64,000 bases of DNA, taken from the IMG/VR virus record IMGVR_UViG_3300018417_000005, positions 1 through 64,000 of that record; one strand, given 5' to 3'. The first letter of the stretch is position 1. Each line of letters opens with the position of its first letter. Position numbers and translations under genes: made by a program. Positions 3,470-58,325 of this stretch are shown here, in pieces. A model generated the notes under the pieces. It was not told where the DNA came from and searched no databases. It saw only the letters and a list, made by a program, of their open reading frames with translations. Source of the stretch: a virus.

Positions 3470-4093
3470 ATGGCTAGACAGTTATTCGAATATATAGATC
3501 CTACAACATCCGGTGTCCAGATTATGGAATCACAGGATGGTAAAGAGCTATTTATGGCAGGACTATTCATCCAAGGCGACGTAAAAAATCAAAATGGAAG
3601 AGTATATCCTGGAAGCGAAATACAGAAAGCCGTTGAAAGTGTTAGATCTCGTTTAGGTAAAGGCGAAACTGTAATGGGTGAGTTAGATCATCCAGAAGAA
3701 TTACAGATTAACTTAGACCGCGTTAGTCACATCATTACTGATATGCACTGTGATGAAGCTAACGGAATGGGAAAACTAAAAATCATAGACACACCTATGG
3801 GTAATATTGCGAAAGCATTGTTAAAAGCAGGTGCGAAACTGGGCGTTAGCAGTCGAGGCAGTGGTAATGTAAATGAAAGTGGCTTAGTAAGTGACTTTGA
3901 TATTATTACTGTAGACATTGTGGCCCAGCCCAGTGCACCAGACGCTTACCCTAAGACTATTTACGAAAGTCTATTTAATATGCAAGGTGGCGCTGTAATA
4001 CACAGCGTCGCACAAGCAGTTACACACGACAAAAGTGCAGAAAAACACCTGTTGAACGAGGTACATAAGTTCATCAGAGAACTTAAACTATAA
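3470..4093 (+). CDS. gp21: Prohead core protease gp21
   Basis: 207 aa, homologous to T4 gp21, a serine peptidase of family S77 that cleaves scaffold and capsid proteins during head maturation. The GELDHPE motif (catalytic His74) and GVSSRGSG (nucleophile Ser127 or 128) are both present, with the following D-I-I-T-V-D-I strand. Length is close to T4 gp21. It lies between the core protein and gp22 with an AAAGGAG ribosome site, in the canonical order. Confidence 0.96.
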   Translation: MARQLFEYIDPTTSGVQIMESQDGKELFMAGLFIQGDVKNQNGRVYPGSEIQKAVESVRSRLGKGETVMGELDHPEELQINLDRVSHIITDMHCDEANGMGKLKIIDTPMGNIAKALLKAGAKLGVSSRGSGNVNESGLVSDFDIITVDIVAQPSAPDAYPKTIYESLFNMQGGAVIHSVAQAVTHDKSAEKHLLNEVHKFIRELKL

Positions 4094-6490: not shown

Positions 6491-9400
6491 ATGGCTAAGC
6501 GCACGGTTATAGCACCAGATGAAGAATTACTTATTAGTGGTAGGTTAACTATTACTGGTAACGTAACTCAAATAGAAACTACCCAAGTAATAAATAATTT
6601 CGAATCAAATACCGTAGTTATTAATAGTGACGGAGACGATGTTAATTCTCGGCTTGTTCTAAACAGCAACGACAACGAAGCTGTTATAAGCTTCGACAAT
6701 GATAACGACTACTTTCTCTTTAATAAAGACATCCAGGCAAACATAACAGGTAATGTTTCAGGTACAGTAACCACAGCAAATAGCCTAGTATCTCCAGTAA
6801 CAATTACAATAGATGGCGACGGATCAGCAACAGACACATTCCAGAACGGTGGCGACACTGCAACACTTAGCTTGGTGTTAGATACAGTAAATGCTACAAC
6901 AGGTTCCTTTGGTAATGCATCTTATATTCCTAACTTTACAGTTAATGGAAAAGGCTTAATAACTGCCGCTGGCGAAACAGCAGTAAATATCACTTCATCG
7001 CAAGTATCAAACTTTAACACTGCAATTAGCGCATATATTATAGGCGGAACTGCGTTAACAGAAAGCGGCGGAACAATTAGCTTAGACAATACAGCAGTTA
7101 CACCTGCGGCATACGGTTCAGCAAGTAGTGTAGGAACATTTACAGTAGATCAACAAGGTCGTTTAACCGCAGCCGCAACTACGGCAATTAATATTACTTC
7201 ATCGCAAGTAAGTAACTTTGTAACATCATCTAACTCTGCAATCGACGCAAGAGTTACAAAAACTTTTGTAGACGCATTAAACGTAGATGCTGATACGCTC
7301 GACTCTTTAAATTCCCTACAATTTGTTCGTGCAGATTTAGATCAAACATTATCGAATACATATACCTTTAGCGGCACGCTCGAGACTACTGGGGTATTAG
7401 ATGCAACTAGTGGACAAATAATAGCAGTAACCCAAGCAAACACCGATAACAGTTCCAATGTTGCTACAACTTCATATGTTAATACCCGTGTCGAAGACCT
7501 AATAGGCGGCGCACCGGACGCACTTGATACGTTAAGAGAAATTTCCGACTCGTTAGCAAACAATACGTCACTTGCTAACACTCTTATTGCACAAATTACT
7601 AGTGCAAATACAAACATTGATACTAACAACGTAGCAATACAGGCGTTAGAGGATATTACATTAACTGCCGGTAACGGTCTAGTAGGGACTGGTACATTAA
7701 CAGGAGATATAACATTTGATGTCGGAGACGGAGATGGTATATCAGTTTCAGCAGATAGCATTGCTGTAGACTCTACTGTAGTAAGGACAACTGGTACACA
7801 AAGCATAGCAGGCGCAAAAACATTTACAGGAACATTAATAGGTCCAACAGGAACGCCAACAACAGAAGGCGCTATTTACAGAGACGGCAGTGAATACTAT
7901 GCTTATGTTGGCGGAATAGAAAGACGGTTAACTGGTAGTGATGTAGGAGAAGTAGAAGACGTCGGTACTGGCGATATAGACATTTACGCAGGTTCTCGAA
8001 CTGCCGCTAATATTACATACCACGGTATTAAGTCTATAAGCGATTCAACTTATACTACTATAAGTGAAGCGTCAAACGTTATAACAATAGATGGTAATAT
8101 TTCTGCGATACGTACAGGATTTAGTGTAACAGATACAGGTGGGGACGGCTCATTAACTTATACTGCCTCAACAGGTGTATTTACATATACAGGCCCAAGC
8201 GCATCCGAAGTACGCGCACACTTAAGCGGAACAGGATTAATAGGATACGACAGTGGCACAGGCGTTATAAGCACAACTGCTGACAACTATGCTAACTGGA
8301 AATTTGTAACTCCGACAACTGGTAACGTAACAGTAGGCAGCGACGAACTAGTTAGCTTTGTGGCAGGAACAGGAATCACAATTAGTAACAGCGGCAGAGC
8401 TATTACAATTACTAACTCTAATACTGCTGACATTACAGACGTTACTGCTGGCGCTGGTTTAACAGGTGGCGGAACTTCAGGCTCGATTAACTTAGATGTA
8501 GGCGCAGGCGACGGTATCACTGTCGCAGCCGATACAGTCGCGGTTGATAGTACTGTAGCGAGAACAGATGTAGAGGAAGTATTTTTTGCAGACACTGGAT
8601 TAACTGTAACATACCAATGGCGCGGTGACCACTACGTTAACTTAGAAATGGAATCCGATGTAGACGCAAACACAGGTGGCCCGTACAACGGTGGTATAAC
8701 ACTAAGTGGTGGCAACGGTGATTTAGAATTACGAGCCAATTCAGTAATCGGTATGTCGATAGAACAAAGCACTCTTACTACCGCACTTATAGGAAACTTA
8801 ATTAAATTTGGTGGAGATAACACCACAGCACAAACTACGTTAAGAAGAAATAGCACACAAGGATCACTTGCACTAACGGGCGGGTCATCGTCTGCGCTAG
8901 GATCTGCATTATTCGTATACGGGCAAGCTCACGCTACATTAGCAAATGATTTTAGATTTACTGCAAGCGGAACAGAGGTGGTACATAGAGACCACTCTAT
9001 AGGTGCAATTCATTTTGCAGACAACATGATGGTTGGTGCAATGACCCCAGCCCCTGATGGTACACTCCACGTTCATACTGGTAGTTCAGGAAGCGTTACA
9101 CCCAACGCATCAGCCGATGACCTTGTCATCGAAAATTCTTCAAACGCAGGAATATCTATTTTAACTCCAAATGCAAATCTTGGGTATTTAATGTTCGGCA
9201 CGCCAGCAAACAACGCTGGGTTTATTATTGACTGGGATTATTCGAACCTAACTACACGAATAAGAACGAATGCCGCCGGTGCAAATATTAGCCTGCAATC
9301 AGGCAATGAAGCGGAGAATTTAGTACTCTCTGGTGAAATCGGCAGTGAACTTGCTGAGTTTATCGGCGATGTTACCATTGGCGGTGACATTACTGTAATA

Positions 9401-9736
9401 GGTGATACATTAACTAACGATGACGCAAGAGGTTCTGCTAACGTAACAACAACTGCAACTACTGAAGTATCGCTACATACTTTTGCCCACGCAACTTATA
9501 CAACAGGTGAGTATGTGATACAGGCTACTAGCGCAGGCGATAAACACATAACTAAATTGCTAGTAATGACAGATGGCAGTATTGCTAATTCAACAGAATT
9601 TGCAGAGTTGATTTCAAACGTGTCGCTATTCACTGCTAATGTAGATGTATCCGGCGCGGATTGTAGATTACGAATAACACCAGCAAGCGCAACGTCGACA
9701 ACATTTAAAACTTCTTATACATTGATAGAGGCGTAA
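6491..9736 (+). CDS. Large tail-fibre-like structural protein
   Basis: 1081 aa, low in charge and rich in Gly, Thr, Ser, Asn and Val. It has repeated beta-structured modules such as AGAGLTGGGTSGSINLDVG and GDGISVSADSIAVDSTV, typical of phage fibre shafts. The N-terminal part has an ITGNVTQIETTQVINN segment often seen in marine phage fibres. Near the C-terminus the protein changes to a more compact domain (residues about 980-1081). No enzymatic motif is seen. Role inferred: adhesin or fibre. AGGAAG lies upstream of the ATG. Confidence 0.75.
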   Translation: MAKRTVIAPDEELLISGRLTITGNVTQIETTQVINNFESNTVVINSDGDDVNSRLVLNSNDNEAVISFDNDNDYFLFNKDIQANITGNVSGTVTTANSLVSPVTITIDGDGSATDTFQNGGDTATLSLVLDTVNATTGSFGNASYIPNFTVNGKGLITAAGETAVNITSSQVSNFNTAISAYIIGGTALTESGGTISLDNTAVTPAAYGSASSVGTFTVDQQGRLTAAATTAINITSSQVSNFVTSSNSAIDARVTKTFVDALNVDADTLDSLNSLQFVRADLDQTLSNTYTFSGTLETTGVLDATSGQIIAVTQANTDNSSNVATTSYVNTRVEDLIGGAPDALDTLREISDSLANNTSLANTLIAQITSANTNIDTNNVAIQALEDITLTAGNGLVGTGTLTGDITFDVGDGDGISVSADSIAVDSTVVRTTGTQSIAGAKTFTGTLIGPTGTPTTEGAIYRDGSEYYAYVGGIERRLTGSDVGEVEDVGTGDIDIYAGSRTAANITYHGIKSISDSTYTTISEASNVITIDGNISAIRTGFSVTDTGGDGSLTYTASTGVFTYTGPSASEVRAHLSGTGLIGYDSGTGVISTTADNYANWKFVTPTTGNVTVGSDELVSFVAGTGITISNSGRAITITNSNTADITDVTAGAGLTGGGTSGSINLDVGAGDGITVAADTVAVDSTVARTDVEEVFFADTGLTVTYQWRGDHYVNLEMESDVDANTGGPYNGGITLSGGNGDLELRANSVIGMSIEQSTLTTALIGNLIKFGGDNTTAQTTLRRNSTQGSLALTGGSSSALGSALFVYGQAHATLANDFRFTASGTEVVHRDHSIGAIHFADNMMVGAMTPAPDGTLHVHTGSSGSVTPNASADDLVIENSSNAGISILTPNANLGYLMFGTPANNAGFIIDWDYSNLTTRIRTNAAGANISLQSGNEAENLVLSGEIGSELAEFIGDVTIGGDITVIGDTLTNDDARGSANVTTTATTEVSLHTFAHATYTTGEYVIQATSAGDKHITKLLVMTDGSIANSTEFAELISNVSLFTANVDVSGADCRLRITPASATSTTFKTSYTLIEA

Positions 9737-9737
9737 C

Positions 9738-10448
9738 ATGGGAACTACTTACGGCCCAAACCCAAACAGTAGCCAAGCTAATTTAGAACTATGTGTAGAT
9801 TTTAGTAATTCTAAAATGTATGCAGGTACTGGTACTACTATTACATCGCTAACAGGATCTGTGGGCAATGGAACATTAGTAGGCGCCCCCACATTTACTT
9901 CGGGCACACCGGGGTATATCACAACAACTGACACACAATATATAAGTTATCCTAATGTTTTTGAAAGCCAAAGTATTACTGTAATTTCATGGGTATACCC
10001 AACATCGCTAACTAGTACAGTAGCAGGAACAGCCGCAAGAATTGTAAGCAGGGATAGAAGCGACTATTGGATGCTAGGTTTAGAAAACGGAGGCGCAGTA
10101 GAGTGGTCAATATATAATAGTGGAGGCTTTAGCTACTGGTTAACACAGACTGCCGTATTTGAAATAAACACATGGCAACAAATTGTTGGCACTTATGACG
10201 GGTCAACAGGTGATCGGCTAGTGTATAAGAACGGTGAAGTAATTGCTGTTAATTCTACATCTACGGCGACTACAATAGGAAATGGTGCGTCACGCCCTAT
10301 TGCTATTAATACAAACGTTGAAGCAACACCGCTAGCGCAATTTGGTATGCCCGGACGACACGGCATGCATTTTGTTTATTCTAAAGCATTAACAGCAGAT
10401 GACGTATTACAAAATTTTGAAGCACATAAAGGACGGTTTGGATTATGA
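9738..10448 (+). CDS. LamG/ConA-like lectin-fold protein, array member 1 of 9
   Basis: 236 aa, short type. After an N-terminal segment (NLELCVDFSNSKMYAG) comes a LamG-like jellyroll core: SQSITVISWVYP, then INTWQQIVGTYDGS and LVYKNGEVIAVN. The C-terminus is the array signature ALTADDVLQNFEAHKGRFGL. The last 61 nt are identical to those of member 2 except for one base. The start lies 1 nt after the preceding stop, and its own stop overlaps the next start (ATGA). Likely a virion adhesin or decoration protein; the ligand is unknown. Confidence 0.8.
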   Translation: MGTTYGPNPNSSQANLELCVDFSNSKMYAGTGTTITSLTGSVGNGTLVGAPTFTSGTPGYITTTDTQYISYPNVFESQSITVISWVYPTSLTSTVAGTAARIVSRDRSDYWMLGLENGGAVEWSIYNSGGFSYWLTQTAVFEINTWQQIVGTYDGSTGDRLVYKNGEVIAVNSTSTATTIGNGASRPIAINTNVEATPLAQFGMPGRHGMHFVYSKALTADDVLQNFEAHKGRFGL

Positions 10449-11566
10449 GCGCAATAGGTGGCCCTAAAACAGTAACAAACGGATTGATATCCTCTGTTGA
10501 TTTTGGCAATCCAAAATCATTTAAAGGAGTTCCGACTAAAAATTATTGGACTACTGAGCGACCTAACTTCTCTAACTGGAACTCACAGGATGTAGTGACT
10601 GCAGATATATCCACAACTATTAGGCGTTTACACAGTACGTCTAATGTAGCATTTAGCGCAATACAATACACCGCCGCAAACTACAGTGCAGATGCTGATG
10701 CAAACATACAATTAAGTTATGCGCTCGATGTAAGAGGTCAAGGTTCTGCTGGTCTTACTATACATCAAGCTCAAACGTCGCCTAACCAGTCAGCAAATTT
10801 AGAATTAAGTTCGACTAAACTTGTGCTTAAGGAAAATGAATGGGTTAGATTACAGTTTGAGGGTTTTTATCACGCAAATACAACAACAGCACAAAACTGT
10901 CTTGTAACGCTAACAGCTGGCACAGGCAATTATGTAGAATGTAGAAACGCACAAGTAGAATTTAGTCCATACACTACACCTTATGTTTACGGTACCCGAT
11001 CTAATACACAGAGCTTATATGATCAAGTAACGAGCATACCTACTACAGTTAATTCAATAACAACATTGGCAGATAACAGAGTAGAATTTGACCAAACTAA
11101 TTATGTTTCGTTAGGAGACTTTTCTTCTATTACGTCAAAATTTAGCGCAGAATTTTGGTTAAACCCGTATTATCTAGATGTTGACGCAAACAACAACTAT
11201 CGTAGGGTTTTATTCAATACCGGCAATAGTAATTTTATTTTAATAGAACAAAGCGGTTCGATTAGTTTCCGTGTTCCTGGAATCGATGAGGTTAATTATA
11301 CGGCCGCAGGTGTAACTATAAACAACTGGTGGCATGTTGTGTGTGTTTATGATCAAGACAAGAGATATATTTATATTAACGGTGCGCTTAAAGGATCACA
11401 GACGATAGGTGCTGGTACAGTATCTTTAGCAACATTGCGATTGAACCAAACCGGAATACAAGGGTTTGAAGGCCAGATAGAGATCGCAAAAATATACAAT
11501 AGAGATTTAACAGCAGATGACGTATTACAAAATTTTGAAGCATATAAAGGACGGTTTGGATTATGA
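10445..11566 (+). CDS. LamG/ConA-like protein with extra beta domain, array member 2 of 9
   Basis: 373 aa, long type. The N-terminal VTNGLISSVDFGNPKSFKG signature is followed by an inserted domain of about 150 residues ending in VEFSPYTTPYVYGTRSNT, a pattern seen in carbohydrate-binding-like beta sandwiches of phage adhesins. A LamG-like core follows (FSAEFWLNPYYL, WWHVVCVYDQDKRYIYINGAL), then the C-terminal DLTADDVLQNFEAYKGRFGL tag. It overlaps both neighbours by 4 nt. Confidence 0.8.
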   Translation: MSAIGGPKTVTNGLISSVDFGNPKSFKGVPTKNYWTTERPNFSNWNSQDVVTADISTTIRRLHSTSNVAFSAIQYTAANYSADADANIQLSYALDVRGQGSAGLTIHQAQTSPNQSANLELSSTKLVLKENEWVRLQFEGFYHANTTTAQNCLVTLTAGTGNYVECRNAQVEFSPYTTPYVYGTRSNTQSLYDQVTSIPTTVNSITTLADNRVEFDQTNYVSLGDFSSITSKFSAEFWLNPYYLDVDANNNYRRVLFNTGNSNFILIEQSGSISFRVPGIDEVNYTAAGVTINNWWHVVCVYDQDKRYIYINGALKGSQTIGAGTVSLATLRLNQTGIQGFEGQIEIAKIYNRDLTADDVLQNFEAYKGRFGL

Positions 11567-12282
11567 GTTTAGGGCACGGAGCAACATCACTAATATACAA
11601 TTTATTATTCTGTGTAGATGCCGCAAATACAAAGAGTATATCCGCCAATACATTAGTTGATTTAGGATCAGTTAATACTGGAACAATGGGAGTTACTACA
11701 AATGTTGTGCGTAACATAGACAACGCAGGATATATTCAATTCTCAAACGAAGCGGCAGATAACGATAGCTTTTATCTTTCTAGAACAATTTCCGGATATC
11801 CGGAATTACATTTAGAAACAGATTTATCCATGGAAGCAGTATGGTATCAATCATCCACACTAGGTGACGACTTTTCTTTAATAGCAAGGTTTGGACAAAC
11901 AACTGATCAAATATATTCTCTGTTTGTTAGCCGCAGTGGTACAAATTTACAATGGAATGTGTTCACGGGCAGTTTTGTAGGGTATAACTCAAGCGCAGGC
12001 ACTAACGTATTAGATACATGGAATCACGCTATTGTTACTAGAAGCGGCACAACTTTATCGTTTTACCATAACGGTGAGTTTGACACGTCAACAACAGTGG
12101 CCATATCTACTGCTACCCCGGGGTCGCTAACTTTAGGAGCATCGTCTATAGATGGTGTAAACCAAGATTTAAATGGTGGTATCGCATTGTTTAAATTGTA
12201 TGATAAAGCATTAACAGCAGACGAGGTTAAACAAAATTATAACGCAGTTAAAGGAAGATTTGCTGGCATAGGTGGGGCTTAA
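11563..12282 (+). CDS. LamG/ConA-like protein, array member 3 of 9 (aberrant C-terminus)
   Basis: 239 aa, short type. The LamG-like core shows LDTWNHAIVTRSGTTLSFYHNGEF. The C-terminal tag is present but altered: ALTADEVKQNYNAVKGRF continues as AGIGGA instead of stopping after GL. It is the only member that does not overlap the next gene; a 20-nt gap with AAAGGAAAG follows. This break suggests the junction between members 3 and 4 was made separately. Confidence 0.78.
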   Translation: MSLGHGATSLIYNLLFCVDAANTKSISANTLVDLGSVNTGTMGVTTNVVRNIDNAGYIQFSNEAADNDSFYLSRTISGYPELHLETDLSMEAVWYQSSTLGDDFSLIARFGQTTDQIYSLFVSRSGTNLQWNVFTGSFVGYNSSAGTNVLDTWNHAIVTRSGTTLSFYHNGEFDTSTTVAISTATPGSLTLGASSIDGVNQDLNGGIALFKLYDKALTADEVKQNYNAVKGRFAGIGGA

Positions 12283-12302
12283 GATAATTTAAAGGAAAGT
12301 TT

Positions 12303-13064
12303 ATGAGTTTAAAACACGGGGGAAGCATAGTAAGAGATGGCTTATATCTTTATATAGATATGGCTAACCCTAAATCTATACCGGCAGACGAGATGGTTGA
12401 CAGCACACGGATTACAGATGCGGCTACTATAACTGACCTTGCTGGGAATTATAATTGTACAATGGGAACAGATGCTAATGGTATATGGGTCGCAGAGAAC
12501 AGCGGCATGTTTGATATAGATTATGTTTCGACTGCCAATGAAGTAAAACTACCATCGTCATTGGCAACAGACCACGCAGGGGATACTAATTTTACTCTAA
12601 GTTTTTGGGCTCAGCTAGATTCGGTTTCTGCGGACATTGATACTTTATACACAGGAAGCGGCGGAAACGCAAATCTATTTATTTACAGAACACCATCAAC
12701 AAGATGGGCATTTTTTCAATATGATGGCGCAGTAGAGCATATTTTTCTAAATAGTAGTCACGCGGAAACTGGTATTACTATCGGGGTACCATTTAACATA
12801 ACAGTCGTTGCTCCATATAACCCGCCAAATGAAGTAGGATTGTATGTAAACGGTAATTTTATATCTTCAACAACAGAAACAACGCCACAATTAGCCTTTA
12901 CTGCCGGACAGATGGGAATAGGGCAAGAGTATGATGGTGGTACTAAAGACGCTAATCAACGTTGGCATGGAAAGTTTGCTTCTCTAGCAATGTATAACCG
13001 TGCGTTATCAGCTACAGAAATAAAACAAAACTTCCTAGCAATGCGGGGAAGATTCGGATTATGA
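12303..13064 (+). CDS. LamG/ConA-like protein, array member 4 of 9
   Basis: 253 aa, short type. The first 38 nt match the start of member 5 with one mismatch (both encode MSLKHGGSIVRDG). The LamG-like core includes NFTLSFWAQLDSV, then VGLYVNGNFISS. The C-terminus is ALSATEIKQNFLAMRGRFGL. An AAAGGAAAG ribosome site precedes the ATG, and the stop overlaps member 5 by 4 nt. Confidence 0.8.
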   Translation: MSLKHGGSIVRDGLYLYIDMANPKSIPADEMVDSTRITDAATITDLAGNYNCTMGTDANGIWVAENSGMFDIDYVSTANEVKLPSSLATDHAGDTNFTLSFWAQLDSVSADIDTLYTGSGGNANLFIYRTPSTRWAFFQYDGAVEHIFLNSSHAETGITIGVPFNITVVAPYNPPNEVGLYVNGNFISSTTETTPQLAFTAGQMGIGQEYDGGTKDANQRWHGKFASLAMYNRALSATEIKQNFLAMRGRFGL

Positions 13065-14185
13065 GTTTAAAACACGGAGGAAGCATAGTAAGAGATGGGC
13101 TAATATTTGGATACGATTTAGATAATGTAAAATCGTTTAAAGGCGCACCTGTAACTAATTTATTAACTGGTGCAGGTACTACTAATTTAGCTAATGGGGC
13201 AATATTAAGCGGATCGGCAACAAGGACCGATTTAGGTAACGGTTTTGTTAAATTTGAAGTAACAGCGCAGATAACATATAGAATGTATTGTAACCTAGCG
13301 ACATTAACTAACGGGCAAACATACGGATGTAGCGTAAAGTATAAAGATAACACTTGTACAACATTAGCGATGGATTGGTGTGACACCTCAGTAACAGGCG
13401 GAGTAAATACTCCCTCGGGAGATAATGGAATAATTTACGGGTCCGGAACAAGAGGTACGTACGATAGCACTTATAGATTCCTAGACATCAATATCGGTAT
13501 AGGTAGCGTGACATTGTACGAAGCACAAGTAGATTCAGTTTCAGTCCCAACACCATACGTTAACGGTACACGTTCTAACACTGCTTCTGTACTAGACCAA
13601 TTCGGTGATAGTACTATTACAGTAAACAGCATAACACCCGAGGTTAATAATAAAGTTTCTTTTGACGGCACAGATTACATAACTGTACCAAGCGCAAATT
13701 TGAAACCAACAATTACAATAACACAAGAATGCTGGTTTCGAAGCACAACGACTGGCACTTCGCAGGTTATGATAGGATTACAATACGGAACGTCTACTAG
13801 TAACTCTTATGCGCTATGGTGGACAAACACACAATGGGCAACTGGTATTAATGTTGGTGGAACATTCTATCAACTTACTAATAACACGCATCCACGCGCA
13901 ACTAATACATGGTATCATTTTGCTAGTACGTATGACGGCGCAAATATAAAAATGTACGTGGACGGCGAAGAGATAGATTCCGTAGCACGATCAGGCTTAA
14001 TAGGGTATGACGCAAGTAATACCCTTGTTACATTAGGGGCAGATTTTAACGGTGCAGGGTACAATTCGGGTGTGACAACACATATACAAGGAGAACTACC
14101 AGTAGTAAAAATTTACAACCGTGCGTTAACAGCTACAGAAATAAAACAAAATTTTCAAGCACTACGAAGTAGATTCGGGTTATGA
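13061..14185 (+). CDS. LamG/ConA-like protein with extra beta domain, array member 5 of 9
   Basis: 374 aa, long type. The N-terminal DGLIFGYDLDNVKSFKGAP segment leads to an inserted beta domain ending in SVPTPYVNGTRSNTASVLDQ, the same joint as in member 2. The LamG-like core has ITITQECWFRSTT and NTWYHFASTYDGANIKMYVDG. The C-terminal tag is ALTATEIKQNFQALRSRFGL, with Ser in place of the usual Gly. It overlaps both neighbours by 4 nt. Confidence 0.8.
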   Translation: MSLKHGGSIVRDGLIFGYDLDNVKSFKGAPVTNLLTGAGTTNLANGAILSGSATRTDLGNGFVKFEVTAQITYRMYCNLATLTNGQTYGCSVKYKDNTCTTLAMDWCDTSVTGGVNTPSGDNGIIYGSGTRGTYDSTYRFLDINIGIGSVTLYEAQVDSVSVPTPYVNGTRSNTASVLDQFGDSTITVNSITPEVNNKVSFDGTDYITVPSANLKPTITITQECWFRSTTTGTSQVMIGLQYGTSTSNSYALWWTNTQWATGINVGGTFYQLTNNTHPRATNTWYHFASTYDGANIKMYVDGEEIDSVARSGLIGYDASNTLVTLGADFNGAGYNSGVTTHIQGELPVVKIYNRALTATEIKQNFQALRSRFGL

Positions 14186-14850
14186 GCACATCTTACGGGG
14201 CAGGTCTAGTCACTGACGGAATTGCATCATTAATTGACGCAAGTAATATTAAGAGTTATCCCGGAGCCGGCACATCCATAACAGACATGATCGGAACAGA
14301 AGATTATACTTTAACATCTGGGGCAGTGATTGCAACTGTTGACTCAGTGGAGTGTTTTGATGTTTCTGCTAGTGCTAGACGCTTAGTCGGGTCCAGTGCT
14401 GTAACTTTTGGAAGCGAGCACACGTTACAATGCTGGGCACGACCATTAAGCGATGCAACGGCGGTAACATGGCGAACACTATGGAGAACAGACCCAGAGG
14501 ACCACCCTATTCTCATACAAGACGGGACAAATGTAATTGGGTACTATGACAATAGCGCAAGTACTTTTCGAAGTTACGGATTAAACATCGGAACAATAGG
14601 TATGGAAAATAAATGGACAATGTTCACAGTGGTTGCTTCTGCTGGGACTAGCACATTATATATAAACGATAATCAATATTCCGGCTCTGTTGCGTACTCT
14701 GCTGACGGCGGGACGTTACTTACTATCGGTGGTTGGTCATCAAGCCAGCCATTCGGGTATATAGCAAATAACATTGCATATACAAGAGCATTATCAGTAG
14801 CCGAAATAAATCAAAACTTTCAAGCACTGCGAGGGAGATTCGGGTTATGA
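14182..14850 (+). CDS. LamG/ConA-like protein, array member 6 of 9
   Basis: 222 aa, the shortest member. The signature MSTSYGAGLVTDGIASLIDA is followed by a LamG-like core (SEHTLQCWARPLSDA, KWTMFTVVASAGTSTLYIND) and the tag ALSVAEINQNFQALRGRFGL. It overlaps both neighbours by 4 nt, so translation is probably coupled along the array. Confidence 0.8.
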   Translation: MSTSYGAGLVTDGIASLIDASNIKSYPGAGTSITDMIGTEDYTLTSGAVIATVDSVECFDVSASARRLVGSSAVTFGSEHTLQCWARPLSDATAVTWRTLWRTDPEDHPILIQDGTNVIGYYDNSASTFRSYGLNIGTIGMENKWTMFTVVASAGTSTLYINDNQYSGSVAYSADGGTLLTIGGWSSSQPFGYIANNIAYTRALSVAEINQNFQALRGRFGL

Positions 14851-15530
14851 GTATATCTTACGGTTCGACACCAATAAAAAACGGATTAGTGTTTTACGTA
14901 GACCCAGCAAACCCAAAAAGCTATATCGGTACTGGTACAGCTATCGATGATATATACGGAGGAACAGCAACAGGTGAAGTAGCAGGAGGAGCAACATTCA
15001 GTTCGGCAAATGCAGGGCACTTCCAATTTGTCACAGACGATTATTTGCGATTCCCTAATAACACTAATTTAGATACACAAACACTAACAATAGAAGTTTG
15101 GGTTAAACCGAACGTAGTAGGTTCGCATAACGGCTTTTACTTTGAGAAAGGTACAGTTAACACGCAGTATTCCATATTCCAAGGCGGCACTAGTTTAATA
15201 TTTCGAACGTTTTTAGGTGGCATTTCCGATTTAACGGTAACTACAGCAACTTATATGACAGCAGGCGAATGGTATCAAGTTGTAGGCACATACACCTCCG
15301 GTGATAAGCGGTTATATATTAACGGTACACAAGTTAATTCTAATGGTGTAACAGGAACAGTAAGCACGAACAGCGGTGGTATGTCCATGGGTGCATATGG
15401 TGGGTACAGTGGCTCTCGCAGTTATTATTTAAACGGTAATTTATCATTATGCCGAGTATATAACCGAGTACTTACACAAGAAGAAATACAGCATAATTTT
15501 ATAGTAAATAAAGGGAGATTTGGCTTATGA
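14847..15530 (+). CDS. LamG/ConA-like protein, array member 7 of 9
   Basis: 227 aa, short type and the clearest LamG match: QTLTIEVWVKPNVVGSHNGF, AGEWYQVVGTYTSGDKRLYI and NGTQV. The C-terminal tag is VLTQEEIQHNFIVNKGRFGL. It overlaps both neighbours by 4 nt. Confidence 0.82.
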   Translation: MSISYGSTPIKNGLVFYVDPANPKSYIGTGTAIDDIYGGTATGEVAGGATFSSANAGHFQFVTDDYLRFPNNTNLDTQTLTIEVWVKPNVVGSHNGFYFEKGTVNTQYSIFQGGTSLIFRTFLGGISDLTVTTATYMTAGEWYQVVGTYTSGDKRLYINGTQVNSNGVTGTVSTNSGGMSMGAYGGYSGSRSYYLNGNLSLCRVYNRVLTQEEIQHNFIVNKGRFGL

Positions 15531-16915
15531 CAGCTTCAGTCGGACCAAGAATAGAAAAGGATGGCCTAGTATTTGCGTACGATGTTAATAATCAAAAAAG
15601 CAATAAAGGTAAACCGACTACTAATCTTATACAGCCGGTAAATGACGGTAACAACACAACTCACCCGAGCTATAGACCTTATTCTGGCTCCCCCCATTTC
15701 GGAGGTGGAACTGTAACCACAACAGAAGTACCGCCACCTCATCCCGGACTGACTGTATATAAACATACTGACGACGGCGTAGATTCTCAGACAGGTAGAC
15801 TATCAATTAGATATCTAATAACTCAAGGCCTGCTGAGTTACGACACGACTTACTGCCATTCTTACTATGTATGGTTGCCTAGTGAATATGCGGCTAGGTG
15901 GGGAAACGGACAAAGGGGCGGACTTTACCAAAACACTGCTGGTGGCGATTGGCATAGTTGGCGCGGATACAATGCTACTTATTCTAATTATGGTGCTGGC
16001 GGCATACAAGGCACTAGTTTAGTGGGTGGTTCGCCATCAGGACCATGGGGACAGATGTACGACAAAACTAAACTAGATCAATGGCAGAGAGTTTACGCAG
16101 TGTTTACACCGCTAACGGATAACATAAATGTTCCGGGTGAAGGCGATCTAGATAACAATATAAACGCAACAGGTTGGTACCGATATTTAGTTAGTAACGG
16201 TGTAAGCGGAGGTGACCCATTTCACATTTACACTAGTGGCGGTATGCTTGAAGAAGGAGTAACATCTCCTGCGCCATGGGCATACACTGAAAGAACTGTC
16301 GACGATGCTGTTACAGATTTAACCGGCACAACAACGGTTGATACGAATGCTACTTATGATTCAACTGGAACTGAACTTGAATTTGTAGCAGGTAATATTA
16401 ATAGGATGGTTGTTAATGGTAGTGTAGATTCTCTGTGCGCAAACCCGGATACATATTCGCTAGAATGTGTTTTTATGAAAACAGGAAATACAGACATTTA
16501 CACGCAAGGCATTATTTTCGGATGGCAAGGATATAACAACGGTATTATAATATCAGATACCAACCAAGTGTACTGCGGTGCCTGGTACGCAAACTCACCG
16601 TGGTCAGTCAGGAATACCGCGCTTACTGCGGTAAGTGAAAATCAATGGTATCACGCAGTTATGACATTTAACGCTAATGGAAATATAACATTCTATATAA
16701 ACGGGGAGTTTAGAGACGCAATTGATATTACAGCAAATACCGCGTCAAGTGGCAATAATTGGTACGGCCGCACGGCTAATATCACAGTAGGTGGCGGCGT
16801 AAGTACTTACCGGTTTACGGGCAAAGTACCTATCGCTAAAGTATATGAAAAAGAATTAACAGCCGCAGAAGTTAAGAAAAATTATAGCGCATACAGAAGA
16901 AGGTTCGGATTATGA
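15527..16915 (+). CDS. LamG/ConA-like protein with large extra domain, array member 8 of 9
   Basis: 462 aa, the longest member. An inserted Trp/Tyr/Gly-rich domain (about residues 35-255), ending MLEEGVTSPAPWAYTERTVD, precedes the LamG-like core (PDTYSLECVFMKTG, NQWYHAVMTFNANGNITFYI). The C-terminal tag is ELTAAEVKKNYSAYRRRFGL. Its N-terminus (MTASVGPR, DGLVFAYD) is close to that of member 9, so these two look like the most recent pair at this end. Confidence 0.8.
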   Translation: MTASVGPRIEKDGLVFAYDVNNQKSNKGKPTTNLIQPVNDGNNTTHPSYRPYSGSPHFGGGTVTTTEVPPPHPGLTVYKHTDDGVDSQTGRLSIRYLITQGLLSYDTTYCHSYYVWLPSEYAARWGNGQRGGLYQNTAGGDWHSWRGYNATYSNYGAGGIQGTSLVGGSPSGPWGQMYDKTKLDQWQRVYAVFTPLTDNINVPGEGDLDNNINATGWYRYLVSNGVSGGDPFHIYTSGGMLEEGVTSPAPWAYTERTVDDAVTDLTGTTTVDTNATYDSTGTELEFVAGNINRMVVNGSVDSLCANPDTYSLECVFMKTGNTDIYTQGIIFGWQGYNNGIIISDTNQVYCGAWYANSPWSVRNTALTAVSENQWYHAVMTFNANGNITFYINGEFRDAIDITANTASSGNNWYGRTANITVGGGVSTYRFTGKVPIAKVYEKELTAAEVKKNYSAYRRRFGL

Positions 16916-18090
16916 CAGCATCAGTTGGCCCAAGAGCATTAAAAGACGGATTGATATTTGCTTACGATATAGCAAATACAGAAAAGTCATGGAAGGGAGC
17001 ACCTACTACTAACTATTTTACATCAGTGCCCCCAGCATACGACTTATGGAATAGTCCAGCTAACGCCACAGTAACAAATAGTGGTGTTGCAAGGGTACTA
17101 ACCGCCGGTGATGCTGGCACCACTTATATGCTAGAAGGCCTGGGTAATCCCGGCGGGTTATTAGATACAAATGTTGCCGTAAGCTATTCTGCTTATTTAC
17201 GGGGTTCCGGAACTGCTCGCATCCGAGCCGATCAATCAAACTCTACGCCCGGGCAAACCGCAAGCTCAAGAACAAGCGCACCGGTTACACTAGACCCAGT
17301 TATATGGCAACGCGCAAAAGTAGAAGGTTACTACCCACAATTAAATCCTACAGTACAAAATGTGCTTGTCTATATTACTTCCGGTAGTGAGTATGTAGAA
17401 GTAAAAGATGTACAATGGGAATACCAACCCTTTGCAACGCCAAGAACAGCATCATCTAGAACAACTACAAATAATGTAATTGATATGACAAACCGAAGTA
17501 CCGTAACTGTAGGTGCAAACTTTACTTATACTGCGGAAAATAAAATAAAATTTGAACCGGGAGAAACATCTGCCAATGGTTTATCGATACCGCTTGATAC
17601 TGCGTTTAATAAACAAGAAGGTACATTAGACATTTGGGCTAAAGCAGATACATTTAGCGGATCTAATGGGTTGTTTGTTAACAGGAACTCGGCTACTGCA
17701 AATGCATTAGATTGGCTATGGTTTGGATTTTGGAGTTCGGCTGGCTTCTTGTATCTTAGAATAGGCGATAGTGTAGCTTGTTGTGTACAGCAATTAGCAC
17801 CTAGTGCTCACGGCGTAGTCGCAGGGCAATATGCACACCTTGTTGCCACATGGAAGGCATCCGGTAACATGGTAATATATATTAATGGCGAACTGTTAGC
17901 TTCGCGTAGTACAGGAACAATCCCCGCAACAAACCCAGCGTCTACAGGATTAATTGGTATCGGACATGCTACCACTGGTTCCGGCGCATTTGATGGTGAA
18001 ATTGCCAAAGTAAATATTTACAATAGACAATTAACAGCCGCAGAAGTAAAGCAAAACTTTAAAGCGCATCGAGGAAGGTTCGGAATTTAG
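16912..18090 (+). CDS. LamG/ConA-like protein with extra beta domain, array member 9 of 9
   Basis: 392 aa, long type. The inserted domain ends VQWEYQPFATPRTASSRTTT and resembles the insert of member 2. The LamG-like core has KQEGTLDIWAKADTF and YAHLVATWKASGNMVIYING. The tag is QLTAAEVKQNFKAHRGRFGI, with Ile instead of Leu as last residue. The stop TAG supplies the first base of a late promoter box, so the array ends here. Confidence 0.8.
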   Translation: MTASVGPRALKDGLIFAYDIANTEKSWKGAPTTNYFTSVPPAYDLWNSPANATVTNSGVARVLTAGDAGTTYMLEGLGNPGGLLDTNVAVSYSAYLRGSGTARIRADQSNSTPGQTASSRTSAPVTLDPVIWQRAKVEGYYPQLNPTVQNVLVYITSGSEYVEVKDVQWEYQPFATPRTASSRTTTNNVIDMTNRSTVTVGANFTYTAENKIKFEPGETSANGLSIPLDTAFNKQEGTLDIWAKADTFSGSNGLFVNRNSATANALDWLWFGFWSSAGFLYLRIGDSVACCVQQLAPSAHGVVAGQYAHLVATWKASGNMVIYINGELLASRSTGTIPATNPASTGLIGIGHATTGSGAFDGEIAKVNIYNRQLTAAEVKQNFKAHRGRFGI

Positions 18091-18135: not shown

Positions 18136-21102
18136 ATGGCCAACGATAAAAGATTCGTTACGAAAAACGGATTAACCACGCAAAATATTCAATTCGTCTC
18201 ACCGGACGGCGCAAACATAATTTTCGCAGAAATGCTTGATAGCGATACGCTATCATTTTACGGCAATGCTGGCCAACTCTTCAGCATAACAGACTCCTTA
18301 ACTGGTACAATATTCGGTATTAACGACATCTCGGGTTTTCCTAGTTTTGAAATTGAGGCTAATGGTAATATTAGCATGGCGGAATTTTCCGGCAATGTAA
18401 ACATAGGCAGTGATACTTTTATAACTGGCAACATTTTCATGAATGATGCCGCAGGCCCGGCTATTTTAAACGAAGCGGCAACTAGCACAAACCCAACGCT
18501 AGTTCCTAACAAAGCAGATGTTGATACTGGTATCGGATGGAATACAACTAACGTCTTGTCGTTTATTACGGCAGGCACAGAAAAATTTGTCGTGGGAAAT
18601 CATTTCTCAGCAAGCACTGCTAGTGGCCCACGAATGGTTGGAGGCGAAACTCCATCAAGCACAAATCCAACATTAGTACCGAATAAAACAGACGATAATA
18701 CTGGTATAGGCTGGCAAGCGGCAGATTCATTGTCAGTAATTGCTGGTGGCGTAGAAGGTATTAGAATAGGAACAACCGCTGTAACCTTACAACTTGATGC
18801 TACTGCTGGTCTTATTAATGGTAGCGATGCCGCCGGACCATCGTTCAGAGGTTCCGAATCCGCAAGTAGTACAAACCCAACACTAGTGCCCAACAAGGCA
18901 GATGTTGATACTGGTATAGGTTGGAATTCAACTGATCATCTTTCTTTGATAGGAGGTGGTGTAGAGAAACTTCGTCTTGGTGCAGTTATGACTGGTTTTG
19001 TACCATTGAACGGTACAAATGCGGCTGGCCCAGCTATTATGTTAAACGAAGCATCATCAACTACGAACCCAACGCTTGTTCCTAGCCGCGGCGACTTAAC
19101 AACAGGTATCGGTTCATCCGGGGCGCATTTATCGTTTATTGAAACTGCAACTGAGCGGGCATATATAGATTCGAGTGGTATAACAGTTACTGGGCAACTT
19201 AGAGCGGCTACAGCAAGTGGCCCAACAATGGTAAACGAAACGCCAACTAGCGCAAACCCAACACTAATCCCAAACAGAACAGACCTTGATACAGGTATTG
19301 GTTGGGAGACCGCAGACGCAGTAACAATTGTTGCTGGTGGCACAAGGGTAGGATCATTTACAGATAAAGGATTAGGTATTGATGTAGTGCCTAATACCAA
19401 TTGGGGGGCTGGTGCAAAAGTGGTTGAGTTTGGTAATACTGGTTCGGTGATGAATTATAGTGATCGATCAACACATCTCAATAATAATGCATATTTTGAT
19501 GGAGCTAATTGGCGATATGTGAACACTGCTGAAGCTACCAATATGTATCTTTTGAACCGTGATATTTATTTCCGCAATGCCGCATCTGGCACGGCAAATA
19601 CTACACTGACATGGTCAACATCAGCACTCTTAAGTGAAACTGGTTTTGCAGTTGGCAATAGTGCTGGATCACAGTTAATGAACGAAGCGGCTACTTCCAC
19701 AAACCCAACGCTAGTTCCTAACAAAGCAGAAACAGACACAGGTATAGGTTGGGCAACAGACGCATTACATTTTATTGGCGGGGGTGTTAGCTTAGGTGTA
19801 ATTAACGGCACAGGATTTACTTCAACTGGTACAGTCTTAGGCACTAACTTAAGTGGTACTAATACTGGTGATATTACATTAGCAGGCACACCGAACTATA
19901 TTACAATTTCGGGACAAACAATAACACGCAACCAAGTTGATTTGGCAGCTGACGTTACTGGCAACTTACCGATTGCAAATTTAAATACTGGCACCGGTGC
20001 TAGTGGATTAACGTTTTGGCGTGGTGATGGTACTTGGGCAGTCCCAGCAGGAGCAGGTGATGTAAGTAAAGTAGGTACACCAGTAAACAATCAAATTGGT
20101 GTGTGGACAGGTAACGGCACGATAGAAGGCGATGCTAATTTTACATGGAGCGGAACAGCATTAGGTGTAACAGGTAACGCAACTGTATCCGGATTTTTAA
20201 CAGTTAGTGGTTCAACATTAACATTTGACGGTGTTGGACTAACAGCAATACAAACAAGCGGTGAAGGCTTTGCTAATAACGACACGAGCATTATGACCAG
20301 TGCCGCTATTGAAGATAAAATATTATCATACAGTTATTCAACCACTGTAGGCACAGTAACTTCTGTTACAGCCGGTACTGGTATGACACAGACCGGCACA
20401 TCAACAATCAATCCGACATTAAATGTTATTGGTGGTGATGGCATCACAGCTAACGCAAATGACATTGCTGTAGACAGCACTGTAGCAAGAACAAACGTTA
20501 ACGAAACTTTCGACCAAGACGTAATTATTTCGGGCAATTTAACAGTTTCAGGAACAACTACAAGTGTTAATACAGAAACAATTGAGCTTGCTGATAATAT
20601 AATACTCTTCAACAGTAACGAAGCTGGCACACCGTCACAAGATGCAGGTATTGAAATAGAACGAGGCACTAGTGCTAACAAAACATTTTTATGGATAGAA
20701 GCAGGAGATTACTGGTCCATTGGAACAGAAGAATTACGTACAGGTAATGTGGATGTTACTGGTTTGTTAACCGCTACACAAAAATCATTTACTATAGATC
20801 ACCCAACTAAACCAAACATGAAATTGCGTTACGGGTCTTTAGAAGGACCGGAAAACGGAGTGTATGTAAGAGGTAAATTAAACGGAAGTGTAATAGAGCT
20901 ACCGGAGTATTGGACAGGACTAGTACACGAAGATACTATTACCGTTAGTTTAACCCCGATTGGTTCGCATCAAAACTTGTACGTTGAAAAAATTGAAAAC
21001 AATAAAGTATATGTTGGGTCGGACGGTGATATTAACTGCTTTTACACTGTTTACGGAGAACGTAAAGACGTAGACAAGCTAACAGTAGAATTTAGTGATT
21101 AA
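18136..21102 (+). CDS. Tail fibre protein with six internal repeats
   Basis: 988 aa. The N-terminus has IFGINDISGFPSFEIEANG, shared with the next gene. Residues about 105-540 hold six copies of a unit built around TNPTLVPNKADVDTGIGW. A module AIQTSGEGFANNDTSIMTSA follows at about residue 705. The C-terminal ~115 residues (HPTKPNMKLRYGSLEGPENG, IELPEYWTGLV, INCFYTVYGERKDVDKL) match a terminal domain I recall from virion proteins of T4-like cyanophages. Inferred to be a trimeric fibre. Confidence 0.82.
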   Translation: MANDKRFVTKNGLTTQNIQFVSPDGANIIFAEMLDSDTLSFYGNAGQLFSITDSLTGTIFGINDISGFPSFEIEANGNISMAEFSGNVNIGSDTFITGNIFMNDAAGPAILNEAATSTNPTLVPNKADVDTGIGWNTTNVLSFITAGTEKFVVGNHFSASTASGPRMVGGETPSSTNPTLVPNKTDDNTGIGWQAADSLSVIAGGVEGIRIGTTAVTLQLDATAGLINGSDAAGPSFRGSESASSTNPTLVPNKADVDTGIGWNSTDHLSLIGGGVEKLRLGAVMTGFVPLNGTNAAGPAIMLNEASSTTNPTLVPSRGDLTTGIGSSGAHLSFIETATERAYIDSSGITVTGQLRAATASGPTMVNETPTSANPTLIPNRTDLDTGIGWETADAVTIVAGGTRVGSFTDKGLGIDVVPNTNWGAGAKVVEFGNTGSVMNYSDRSTHLNNNAYFDGANWRYVNTAEATNMYLLNRDIYFRNAASGTANTTLTWSTSALLSETGFAVGNSAGSQLMNEAATSTNPTLVPNKAETDTGIGWATDALHFIGGGVSLGVINGTGFTSTGTVLGTNLSGTNTGDITLAGTPNYITISGQTITRNQVDLAADVTGNLPIANLNTGTGASGLTFWRGDGTWAVPAGAGDVSKVGTPVNNQIGVWTGNGTIEGDANFTWSGTALGVTGNATVSGFLTVSGSTLTFDGVGLTAIQTSGEGFANNDTSIMTSAAIEDKILSYSYSTTVGTVTSVTAGTGMTQTGTSTINPTLNVIGGDGITANANDIAVDSTVARTNVNETFDQDVIISGNLTVSGTTTSVNTETIELADNIILFNSNEAGTPSQDAGIEIERGTSANKTFLWIEAGDYWSIGTEELRTGNVDVTGLLTATQKSFTIDHPTKPNMKLRYGSLEGPENGVYVRGKLNGSVIELPEYWTGLVHEDTITVSLTPIGSHQNLYVEKIENNKVYVGSDGDINCFYTVYGERKDVDKLTVEFSD
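18448..19752. repeat. Six diverged in-frame repeats in the fibre gene
   Basis: Copies start near 18448, 18619, 18826, 19018, 19207 and 19666. Each encodes AGP-type residues, a variable Asn-Glu segment, then TNPTLVPNK or a close variant and DTGIGW. Spacing is uneven, with other sequence between copies, so this is a fibre repeat and not a CRISPR array. Confidence 0.85.
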
Positions 21103-35263: not shown

Positions 35264-37129
35264 TTAGAGAACTAAAACCCAGTAACCTGGATTATAAGTG
35301 CCTTCATAACTGTTAATCCACTGCGAGCCTGTCCACTTGTATTGTGTAGAACTAGCAGTACTTGTTACGTAATTTTCGGTTGACACATTACTAGAATCGT
35401 AAGACACTATCCAGCTGTTACTGTCAGCGTCGAATTCGATAATATCATTTTCTCTAGCTAAGATATCCCACGCTAATGTAAAATTAGCTTGGCCCGCCAC
35501 TAATTCTAAATTTGATGTCTCGGGTATCTCTGGCGATCCTGGATCTGCTATGCCGGTATTAAACCCTGTAAATGAATAAGTGTATGAATTATTAGCAAAG
35601 TCTAAACCATCGTATCGTACTAATTCAACAATAGTTTTCAAGTCGTTTTCAAATGTAATACTAATAGAGGTCGGCAAATTATCAACACCAGGGGCAACGG
35701 TAATGTCTACGCGCCCGATTTCAACCTCCGGGAAAAACCCTACAGCAAAAATCCCATCATTAGGGAAAGAATCGATATACGTAGTAAACGGATTCCCGTC
35801 GTATAATACATCAGTGTTGGCCGCAATTAAGCCGGGCTCACCCAAATAAACATTGCTTGTATCGTACCAACCTATCTCAGCAATCTCGAAACTAGATTTG
35901 TCCGGACCCTGTAAATCGTTAATTATAATAGTCCAATTGCTTGAGCTTTCCACGTTACCTAATGTAGGCGGAACTGCCGGTACTGCCGGAGTAATAACGG
36001 TTTCATAAACTGCAGGACTTATATCCTCAGTAAGAAGGTAACGTTGTCCTGCAGATGCAGGGTCAAGCCCGTCACCGGGATAAACAGCCCTAGGGTCTAT
36101 AATGCTATCAACACTAGATACGGTGTTAGTAGGCAACGTGTCAGAATCTAACGTAAACGTCATCGTATTATTTGACAGGCTTATACCTCCTACAATAACA
36201 TCTGTATCGTTCTCAGGATCGTTAGTAGTGTTTAATTTAAGCAAGCTAGTAGTAGATACAGTGCCATACATCTCAATGACATTGTTCCACGATTGCTCTA
36301 TGCCAGCGGAATTAAGTAACACAGCAGAACTGCCGCTAATTTGTAAGTAATAATCTCCTGGAGTAACAATAACCTGCGCAGTATTTTCTATACTGCTAAA
36401 GAAGTCATAGTAATCATTATCGAATCCTAAGTCTGCTATACTATCTACAGTGTGAATATCTGCAATAATTTTTTGTATAATAGATTGCGCCTTAACCTTA
36501 GCTGGAGGAGAAATCCAAATAGGCACCTCAAATGTAAGCGTAGCAATATCTAAACTTTCATCAACGCCGGCTGGCACACTTCTGCTAGTCCACGAAGTAT
36601 TAGTTAATGTTATATTAAATACGTTAGACCAATCTAGCGGATTGCTATTGCTTTGTAACTCTAGACTAGGATTAAACAACACAAAAATTTGTTCTAATAA
36701 TTGTAATTTAGTATCAGTGTTTGTAGTCCAAATATCAACTTGTAATGTAAGATCATACGGAACAGGCATATATTTTTGTACAGTGTACAAGTTGCCCTGC
36801 TCAGAAGAGTATGTGCCAGTGTCGGGATCATATAAACGTTCAGCTACTTGTTTAGTGTCTACGTTCATTGGATCTTGTGCGCGTTCTCTCGATAGCTGTA
36901 ACTCATTAATGCTTAGTGCTATAAACGGCGCAGAGTTTACGACGTTCTCTGAGTTGTTCCTCAAAATACTCGATACCATTCTGCTAGCATCACCATAACG
37001 AACAGGCACTCGATTGTAACTGGTGCCGGTGCTTGACACTTCCTTTACTTGAAAGTGAGAAAACACACGAATAAGCTGAAGCAAGTATCGCTTAATTTGT
37101 TCGTCATAAAAGTAGTCAAGATTTGCCAT
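35264..37129 (-). CDS. gp15: Tail completion and sheath stabiliser protein gp15
   Basis: 621 aa. The N-terminal ~230 residues match T4 gp15: YFYDEQIKRYLLQLIRVFSH and RVPVRYGD parallel T4 YFYNSSFRRYATLMGDLFSN and RVPITYAS, and TLTFEVPIWISPPAKVKA parallels the T4 strand ending near WMYPP. T4 gp15 (272 aa) caps the tail tube and sheath and joins tail to head. The extra ~390 residues are Asp/Ser/Thr-rich beta modules absent in T4, possibly exposed at the neck. It is in a minus-strand block. Confidence 0.87.
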   Translation of the reverse strand: MANLDYFYDEQIKRYLLQLIRVFSHFQVKEVSSTGTSYNRVPVRYGDASRMVSSILRNNSENVVNSAPFIALSINELQLSRERAQDPMNVDTKQVAERLYDPDTGTYSSEQGNLYTVQKYMPVPYDLTLQVDIWTTNTDTKLQLLEQIFVLFNPSLELQSNSNPLDWSNVFNITLTNTSWTSRSVPAGVDESLDIATLTFEVPIWISPPAKVKAQSIIQKIIADIHTVDSIADLGFDNDYYDFFSSIENTAQVIVTPGDYYLQISGSSAVLLNSAGIEQSWNNVIEMYGTVSTTSLLKLNTTNDPENDTDVIVGGISLSNNTMTFTLDSDTLPTNTVSSVDSIIDPRAVYPGDGLDPASAGQRYLLTEDISPAVYETVITPAVPAVPPTLGNVESSSNWTIIINDLQGPDKSSFEIAEIGWYDTSNVYLGEPGLIAANTDVLYDGNPFTTYIDSFPNDGIFAVGFFPEVEIGRVDITVAPGVDNLPTSISITFENDLKTIVELVRYDGLDFANNSYTYSFTGFNTGIADPGSPEIPETSNLELVAGQANFTLAWDILARENDIIEFDADSNSWIVSYDSSNVSTENYVTSTASSTQYKWTGSQWINSYEGTYNPGYWVLVL

Positions 37130-57179: not shown

Positions 57180-58325
57180 ATGCAGAAACCATTTGACTTA
57201 TCGAAATTCCGTAATGGGATTACAAAAAGTATTACAGGCATAAGTGCAGGCTTCCATGATCCGAAAGACTGGGTTAGCACAGGAAACTATACACTCAATT
57301 ATCGTATTAGCGGGGATTTCACAAAAGGAATTCCTCTTGGTAAGGTAAGTGTTTTTGCAGGCGAGTCCGGTTCAGGTAAATCTTTTATCTGTTCCGGCAA
57401 CATCGTTAAGAACGCACAAGACATCGGGTGTCAAGTTGTACTGTTTGACAGTGAAAACGCACTAGACGAAGATTGGCTTAAGGCACTCGACGTTGACACA
57501 AATCCTGACAAGTTGTTAAAGATTAGTGTTAGCATGATTGACGACGTTGCGAAAACAATGAGCGACTTCATGAAGGATTATAAAACAAACTACGGCGATT
57601 TAGATTACGAAGACATGCCAAAAATGTTATTTGTAATTGATAGCTTAGGTATGCTTTTAACTCCCACTGATGTTGCACAGTTTGAAAAAGGTGATATGAA
57701 GGGCGATATGGGTCGTAAACCTAAAGCACTAACATCACTAGTTCGTAACATGGTAAATCAATTAGCACCTTACCCTGTTGGCATCGTAGCAACAAACCAC
57801 ACTTACGCATCACAAGACATGTTTGACCCCGATGATAAAATCAGTGGCGGACAAGGCTTTATATATGCGTCAAGTATTGTTGTAGCAATGCGAAAACTTA
57901 AGCTAAAACTAGACGCTGACGGCAACAAAACAACAACTGTACAAGGTATTAGGGCGGCATGTAAAGTGATGAAAACACGTTACAGCAAACCTTTTGAATC
58001 TGTGCAAGTTGAGATTCCGTATGAATCTGGAATGAGCCCTTACAGTGGATTGCTAGATATGTTTGAAGCTATCGGCGCTATTACTAAGACTGGTAACAAG
58101 TTAGAATACGTTAGCCCAGTTACAGGCGAAATCATCAAAGAGTTCCGAAAGGCCTGGACAGATGAAAAGCTACAAGTAGTAATCGACGAATGGGATCAAA
58201 ATCCTATTGCTCACCCAGAGTTGCAGGATGTCGACGCTGAAGATATTAGCGAAGTTGAAGTTGACGATATTGATGTAGATGATGTTGTTGATCAGATGAT
58301 GGAGGCTGAGACTAATGAATCTTGA
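57180..58325 (+). CDS. uvsX: Recombinase UvsX (RecA family)
   Basis: 381 aa, close to T4 UvsX (391). Walker A GESGSGKS is at residues 61-68, and Walker B is in MLFVIDSLGML. The loop region KGDMGRKPKALTSLVRNM and GIVATNHTY follow in the expected order. The C-terminus is very acidic. It catalyses strand exchange in recombination-dependent replication with gp32 and UvsY. It lies 10 nt after gp32, preceded by AAGGAG. Confidence 0.97.
   Translation: MQKPFDLSKFRNGITKSITGISAGFHDPKDWVSTGNYTLNYRISGDFTKGIPLGKVSVFAGESGSGKSFICSGNIVKNAQDIGCQVVLFDSENALDEDWLKALDVDTNPDKLLKISVSMIDDVAKTMSDFMKDYKTNYGDLDYEDMPKMLFVIDSLGMLLTPTDVAQFEKGDMKGDMGRKPKALTSLVRNMVNQLAPYPVGIVATNHTYASQDMFDPDDKISGGQGFIYASSIVVAMRKLKLKLDADGNKTTTVQGIRAACKVMKTRYSKPFESVQVEIPYESGMSPYSGLLDMFEAIGAITKTGNKLEYVSPVTGEIIKEFRKAWTDEKLQVVIDEWDQNPIAHPELQDVDAEDISEVEVDDIDVDDVVDQMMEAETNES

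Follow-up and report, generated by a model that had tools for sequence, protein, structure and literature searches.

A tandem array of nine LamG-type genes in a phage genome, a probable binding repertoire, and the exchange of gene cores in related phages

Several phages encode more than one receptor-binding protein at one place. The Kuttervirus tailspikes TSP1-4 are encoded as a multi-receptor-binding-protein cluster (PMC8432352), for which a conserved motif has been proposed to permit recombination between binding modules, and phages of the phiK64-1 group have up to 11 receptor-binding proteins (PMC6872550). In both, the proteins are depolymerase tailspikes or fibres of large size, and their receptors have been proven. 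Laminin G3 domains are known from jumbo phages, where they are tied to tail fibres and other virion parts (PMC7824862), and the LamG structural proteins of cyanophages and Flavobacterium phages are encoded by two or three neighbouring genes or joined in a single protein. The type of array described here resembles the Kuttervirus and phiK64-1 clusters in that several putative adhesins with a conserved anchor and an exchanged binding part are encoded together. Unlike in those clusters, the units of this type of array are LamG domains of ~230 aa that are conserved at both ends and occur in up to 14 ATGA-coupled copies. The proteins S-PM2p090-091, immuto 219-221, and phrog_8510 have the same domain and the same C-terminal tag and are annotated as structural, but the cyanophage and Flavobacterium phage clusters are shorter (two or three genes) and no core exchange is described in the accessible parts of these sources. 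The jumbo-phage domains belong to the same domain family; the accessible part of that report mentions one or more domains but neither tandem gene arrays nor core exchange. The open-licence literature searched contained no paper on tandem arrays of LamG genes in phages, nor on the exchange of their cores. LamG domains in phages were known before; the new result is the mode in which the array changes, and it is drawn from related phages.

The window analysed is a stretch of 64,000 nucleotides, positions 1 to 64,000 of the IMG/VR record IMGVR_UViG_3300018417_000005. The whole record is 89,367 bp long and its Laminin_G_3 genes are exactly the nine of the array at 9738-18090, consecutive + strand ORFs with almost no spacing, named LG1 to LG9. 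The features referred to below are as follows.

6491..9736, + strand: upstream fibre-type gene, 1081 aa (PHROG tail-fibre families and Pfam BppL_N)
9738..10448, + strand: LG1, LamG protein of 236 aa (PF13385, 54.1 bits)
10382..10449, + strand: reference copy of the 68-nt joint repeat (repeat search, nine copies, 60-100% identity)
10445..11566, + strand: LG2, 373 aa, LamG with inserted domain (PF13385, 66.2 bits)
11563..12282, + strand: LG3, LamG protein of 239 aa with decayed tag (PF13385, 62.6 bits)
12303..13064, + strand: LG4, LamG protein of 253 aa with its own Shine-Dalgarno-like AAAGGAAAG 5' of the gene (PF13385, 59.2 bits)
13061..14185, + strand: LG5, 374 aa, LamG with inserted domain (PF13385, 82.9 bits)
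14182..14850, + strand: LG6, LamG protein of 222 aa (PF13385, 29.7 bits)
14847..15530, + strand: LG7, LamG protein of 227 aa (PF13385, 96.7 bits; AlphaFold2 model, pLDDT 91.8)
15527..16915, + strand: LG8, 462 aa, LamG with inserted domain (PF13385, 47.2 bits)
16912..18090, + strand: LG9, 392 aa, LamG with inserted domain, last gene, without ATGA overlap (PF13385, 71.8 bits; model pLDDT 64)
11500, 12204, 12998, 14119, 14784, 15464, 16849, and 18024: starts of the other copies of the 68-nt joint repeat
18136..21102, + strand: downstream fibre-type gene, 988 aa (phrog_17490/28536)
57180..58325, + strand: RecA/UvsX-like recombinase gene, a candidate for joint recombination (PF00154, E-value 4.8e-15)

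All nine proteins passed the gathering score of 27.6 for PF13385 (Laminin_G_3), with 29.7-96.7 bits, and BLASTP recognised all of them as paralogues. The original prediction of nine paralogous LamG genes was therefore confirmed, far beyond chance, as were the 4-nt ATGA overlaps at seven of the eight junctions (the exception, LG3 to LG4, has a 20-nt gap) and the strong divergence of the cores, which share 16-30% identity among the nine. The proposed sequence signatures stood in part. A common N-terminal head motif is present, but its GL and KS are absent from LG1 and its GL from LG3, and the core signature W..TYDG..YING is loose, with only 13 invariant alignment columns. The common C-terminal tag is shared by the array, except that in LG3 it is altered to KGRFAGIGGA. 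The long members do contain an extra domain, which is not appended but inserted after the first strand, between the head and the LamG body. The inserts had no match among Pfam families, and in the LG9 model the inserted domain is of low confidence (pLDDT 64).

Some local features were also seen. At 12240-12310 of the window the LG3 tag is broken and a partial tag-like AAAGGAAAGTTT with a ribosome-site-like run lies before the LG4 start, and a 25-nt imperfect palindrome is located in the LG3 coding sequence at 11777-11818. In two other loci (L084:2775-4028 and L154:767-2038), LamG members carry a different insert after the head, which is conserved between the two.

For LG7, a structure prediction based on an alignment of 63 family members reached a mean pLDDT of 91.8. 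The model consists of many beta strands, from a first strand at residues 14-18 to a last one at 197-205, followed by a helix at 211-225 that corresponds to the 'tag' of the original prediction (pLDDT blocks 94-98). It has the concanavalin-type jelly-roll fold, with TM scores of about 0.7 against ConA-like domains and 0.8 against phage LamG proteins (for this one short member only), and together with the Pfam matches for all nine it bears out the predicted LamG/ConA-type fold. The members are LamG jelly rolls, and no beta-helix tailspike domain of the Kuttervirus or phiK64-1 type was found in them. By profile, the closest solved relatives are lectin-like or binding domains of an S-layer protein, a sialidase, an arabinanase, neurexin, and pentraxins. 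No glycoside hydrolase or lyase Pfam family was found in any of the nine at E <= 0.1, and a polyguluronate lyase structure gave only a weak profile match. Kinship to clostridial neurotoxin binding domains or trypanosomal sialidases was considered and rejected, as the fold matches reflect only the shared jelly-roll superfamily at 10-19% identity.

The tag had been taken for a dedicated docking peptide. The Pfam LamG_3 match, however, spans its LTxxEV and stops 12-16 residues before the C-terminus, so only ~QNFxAxxGRFGL is extra beyond the domain. The docking reading was not upheld: most of the tag is the strand and helix that close the LamG fold, and the DNA encoding it has a second role for the gene that follows. 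Matches to the fused cyanophage-type family phrog_8510 end at an internal position (903) as well as at its C-terminus (1348 of 1348). The N-terminal head marks the gene slot at least as strongly as the tag does.

At the DNA level, a 68-nt direct repeat was found nine times, one copy per gene 3' end, and these joint repeats are direct coding repeats. In LG1 and LG2 the last 60 nt are 98% identical and the cores ~21%. Ahead of the overlapping start codon, the tag codons for [KR]GR make up a run that resembles a Shine-Dalgarno sequence and would serve the next gene as a ribosome site. The Shine-Dalgarno match was 4.57 at coupled tags and 3.91 at uncoupled ones, a difference in the expected direction, for part of which the pattern of the first scan described below selects. 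Within the window, neighbouring genes are more alike in their heads (P 0.008) and tags (P 0.016), but not in their cores (P 0.98). As the adjacency effect for tags was not significant in other arrays, this test is not used as general evidence.

To assess how common such arrays are, a scan of the collection with the nine-gene alignment was attempted, but the alignment was too divergent, and LG9 alone found no relative there. The scans were therefore made with the DNA pattern of the tag and ATGA joint, as [KR]GRFGL with an overlapping ATGA in IMG/VR (pattern 1) or without the ATGA (pattern 2); clean tags are consequently over-represented. Pattern 1 gave 96 stretches in IMG/VR, most with LamG genes and often in tandem. 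The collected set comprises at least 180 loci with at least 419 LamG-tag ORFs. Among the matches listed, 110 of the 165 pattern-derived loci had at least two LamG genes, and up to 14 LamG modules were present per record (contig 3300032293_001310), followed by 12 and 10. Nine copies had been thought exceptional, a view that does not hold given up to 14 modules in one contig elsewhere and LamG tandems in more than 100 loci. Isolates have small clusters, with three tandem genes in the immuto phages and two adjacent ones in S-PM2. When the strict tag pattern was run against 84,980 bacterial and archaeal genomes, a single contig matched, of a Flavobacteriaceae MAG, so the feature looks essentially viral. 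In locus L107 (G011:C1:85795-89619), an ORF of 1613 aa consists of about seven fused LamG modules, and separate LamG genes lie on the same contig.

In related phages the gene order is kept. Each gene is also conserved over its first ~90 nt, at 97% identity, and over its last ~30-60 nt, but the cores that lie between these ends are unrelated. Six loci (L088, L094, L095, L098, L162, and L176) with LamG genes in the same three slots were compared. The median head identity was 95% in slot A and 100% in slot C, and the median core identity 25% and 32%, respectively, with a family background of 24%. The nucleotide identity was ~97% over the first 60-90 nt. In slots A and C it had dropped to chance by 120-180 nt, and over the last 30 nt it was back to 80-93%. 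Short members from different loci with heads at least 86% identical were also paired, giving 82 pairs among the matches listed. These pairs are not independent of each other and were formed by 78 genes that belong to a limited set of groups. Core identity was below 0.4 in 73 of these pairs and above 0.8 in nine, with none between. The gap between 0.4 and 0.8 would be filled if divergence were gradual.

The sister phages G021 and L137, with ~90-96% identical flanking DNA and a common slot order, have unrelated cores (25-37%) in seven of nine matched slots and the same core (91-92%) in the other two. G021 exceeds L137 by three genes at the start and by two in the middle; at its second place, L137 has a 34-codon stub with an intact LamG head (reverse complement 3980-4084) where G021 has two full LamG genes. 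A core-less ORF of 48 aa with head and tag only, an 'empty cassette', was present in L321, L330, and L358 (the copy at L381:2919-3065 on the - strand is the same place as that of L330). Related cores were also seen behind different heads, with a core identity of 61% and a head identity of 46% between slot C of L088 and immuto 219. On comparison of these sequences, whole cores have been swapped and whole genes gained or lost in related phages, where adjacent genes with a conserved anchor and an exchanged putative binding part are found.

Another explanation is that the nine genes are old tandem duplicates that have merely diverged, with heads and tags kept by selection on fold and translation and without exchange. 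The cores of seven of the nine genes, which have no close match anywhere, would fit this, as would a tag that belongs to the fold and whose codons overlap the ribosome-site-like run, enough alone to conserve the DNA. It does not explain why the cores of relatives leap from above 80% to below 40% identity behind near-identical heads with nothing between, why nucleotide identity in related phages drops abruptly ~90-120 nt into the gene, or why whole genes are gained or lost. For the relatives the duplication scenario is already contradicted at the level of sequence comparison, and overall we consider it very unlikely.

For the array of the window itself, neither the major-head-protein relatives nor the fibre relatives yielded a slot-sharing relative, and the only relative with part of LG1, L002, is identical over 6697 nt. 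The LG6 core is closest to that of L093 of another phage (45%, against 21% to its own neighbours) and the LG7 core to that of L090, also of another phage (47%, against 26%). The best core match anywhere for the other seven genes was weak, at 31% or less. Since the searches recovered no close relative that shares this array, we infer from the related phages that the same core exchange takes place here. The 98% identity of LG1 and LG2 over their last 60 nt, the dependence of head and tag similarity, but not core similarity, on adjacency, and the closest matches of the LG6 and LG7 cores in other phages are consistent with this.

Core exchange by homologous recombination at the joints, within a LamG binding repertoire, is the explanation that we find probable as a whole. 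The array would encode small LamG jelly-roll proteins for binding, which are probably displayed on the virion close to a fibre or the neck. In each protein a variable core lies between a conserved head, of ~30 residues with the first strand among them, and a last strand and helix that are likewise conserved; head and tag probably make up a shared base, with the core providing the binding surface. The genes would be translated as a coupled operon, and the similar joint DNA, i.e., the last ~30-60 nt of one gene and the first ~90 nt of the next, would provide homology for phage recombination. Such recombination would replace, insert, or delete whole cores with frame, fold base, and coupling kept, and swapped cores would alter the surface molecules that the phage can hold. 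More tentatively, with slightly less than even confidence, we suggest that the joint has three jobs, encoding the lectin base, giving the gene that follows its ribosome site and its coupled start, and supplying homology for core swap, gain, and loss, in a widespread phage system of adhesin diversification.

A dedicated device, such as a reverse-transcriptase retroelement, an invertase shufflon, or integrase cassettes, could instead rearrange the array, and short repeated joints with exchangeable units do look cassette-like. Yet the 89-kb record, which may be incomplete, had no match to a reverse transcriptase (PF00078), resolvase (PF00239), or tyrosine integrase (PF00589), the joints are direct coding repeats with one short palindrome that lies inside LG3, and the cores change wholesale. 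We hold such a device to be extremely unlikely. Given the RecA/UvsX-like gene and the lack of these matches, exchange probably proceeds by homologous recombination at the joints.

If this is right, an open rack with as many as 14 exchangeable lectins is present in many uncultivated phages, which would go some way to explaining how the attachment repertoire can change fast without disturbing the rest of the particle. Metagenomes could be searched for such arrays by the DNA signature of the tag and ATGA joint, and natural LamG binding domains drawn from them. A further question that becomes testable is whether phages build their adhesin repertoires by homologous exchange at built-in joints, or by mutation or a dedicated recombinase.

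The phage is assigned by sequence to the T4 superfamily, and its gp23-type major head protein is ~70% identical to that of PA5oct. The portal, prohead protease, and gp23-type major head protein genes lie before the array and the tail sheath and terminase genes after it, a structural-gene setting that supports the original interpretation. The upstream fibre-type gene stops 1 nt short of LG1 and the downstream one begins 45 nt past the array. In other phages the array neighbours are the major head protein, neck adaptor, sheath, and fibres. Among the matches listed, a fibre ended directly 5' of the LamG genes in 27 of the 108 loci with a visible flank, compared with none of 33 loci anchored on the major head protein. 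The C-terminal domain of these 27 fibres is that of the downstream fibre of the window, which thus also occurs in fibres immediately 5' of LamG genes in other phages. The relatives are annotated by their depositors as (virion) structural proteins in S-PM2 and the immuto phages. Domain type, genomic setting, these annotations, and the swap pattern together suggest that the LamG proteins are likely virion adhesins, which is the weaker half of the argument.

The LamG proteins might also give the virion a general stickiness for algal exudate, particles, or biofilm matrix, in the manner of Hoc-type Ig domains that bind mucus, and not serve host-cell selection. The arrays adjoin head and neck genes in several phages, the fold is a generic carbohydrate- and matrix-binding one, and the copies are many and divergent, all of which would suit such a role. 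The allele-like wholesale replacement of cores at fixed slots, however, resembles receptor-binding modules more, and direct linkage to a fibre gene is frequent; general stickiness is therefore judged unlikely. The reading of the array as a receptor-binding repertoire is strengthened by the swapped cores in related phages.

The flanking genes have some features of their own. The tail sheath gene at 42667-45450 (+) is very long (927 aa), and a minus-strand gene at 35264-37129 (-) likewise matches tail sheath and sheath-stabiliser families. For the C-terminal domain (phrog_17490/28536) of the downstream fibre (18136-21102) there is neither a Pfam name nor a solved relative, and the fibre contains many internal repeats of the form NPTLVPNKxDxDTGIGW.
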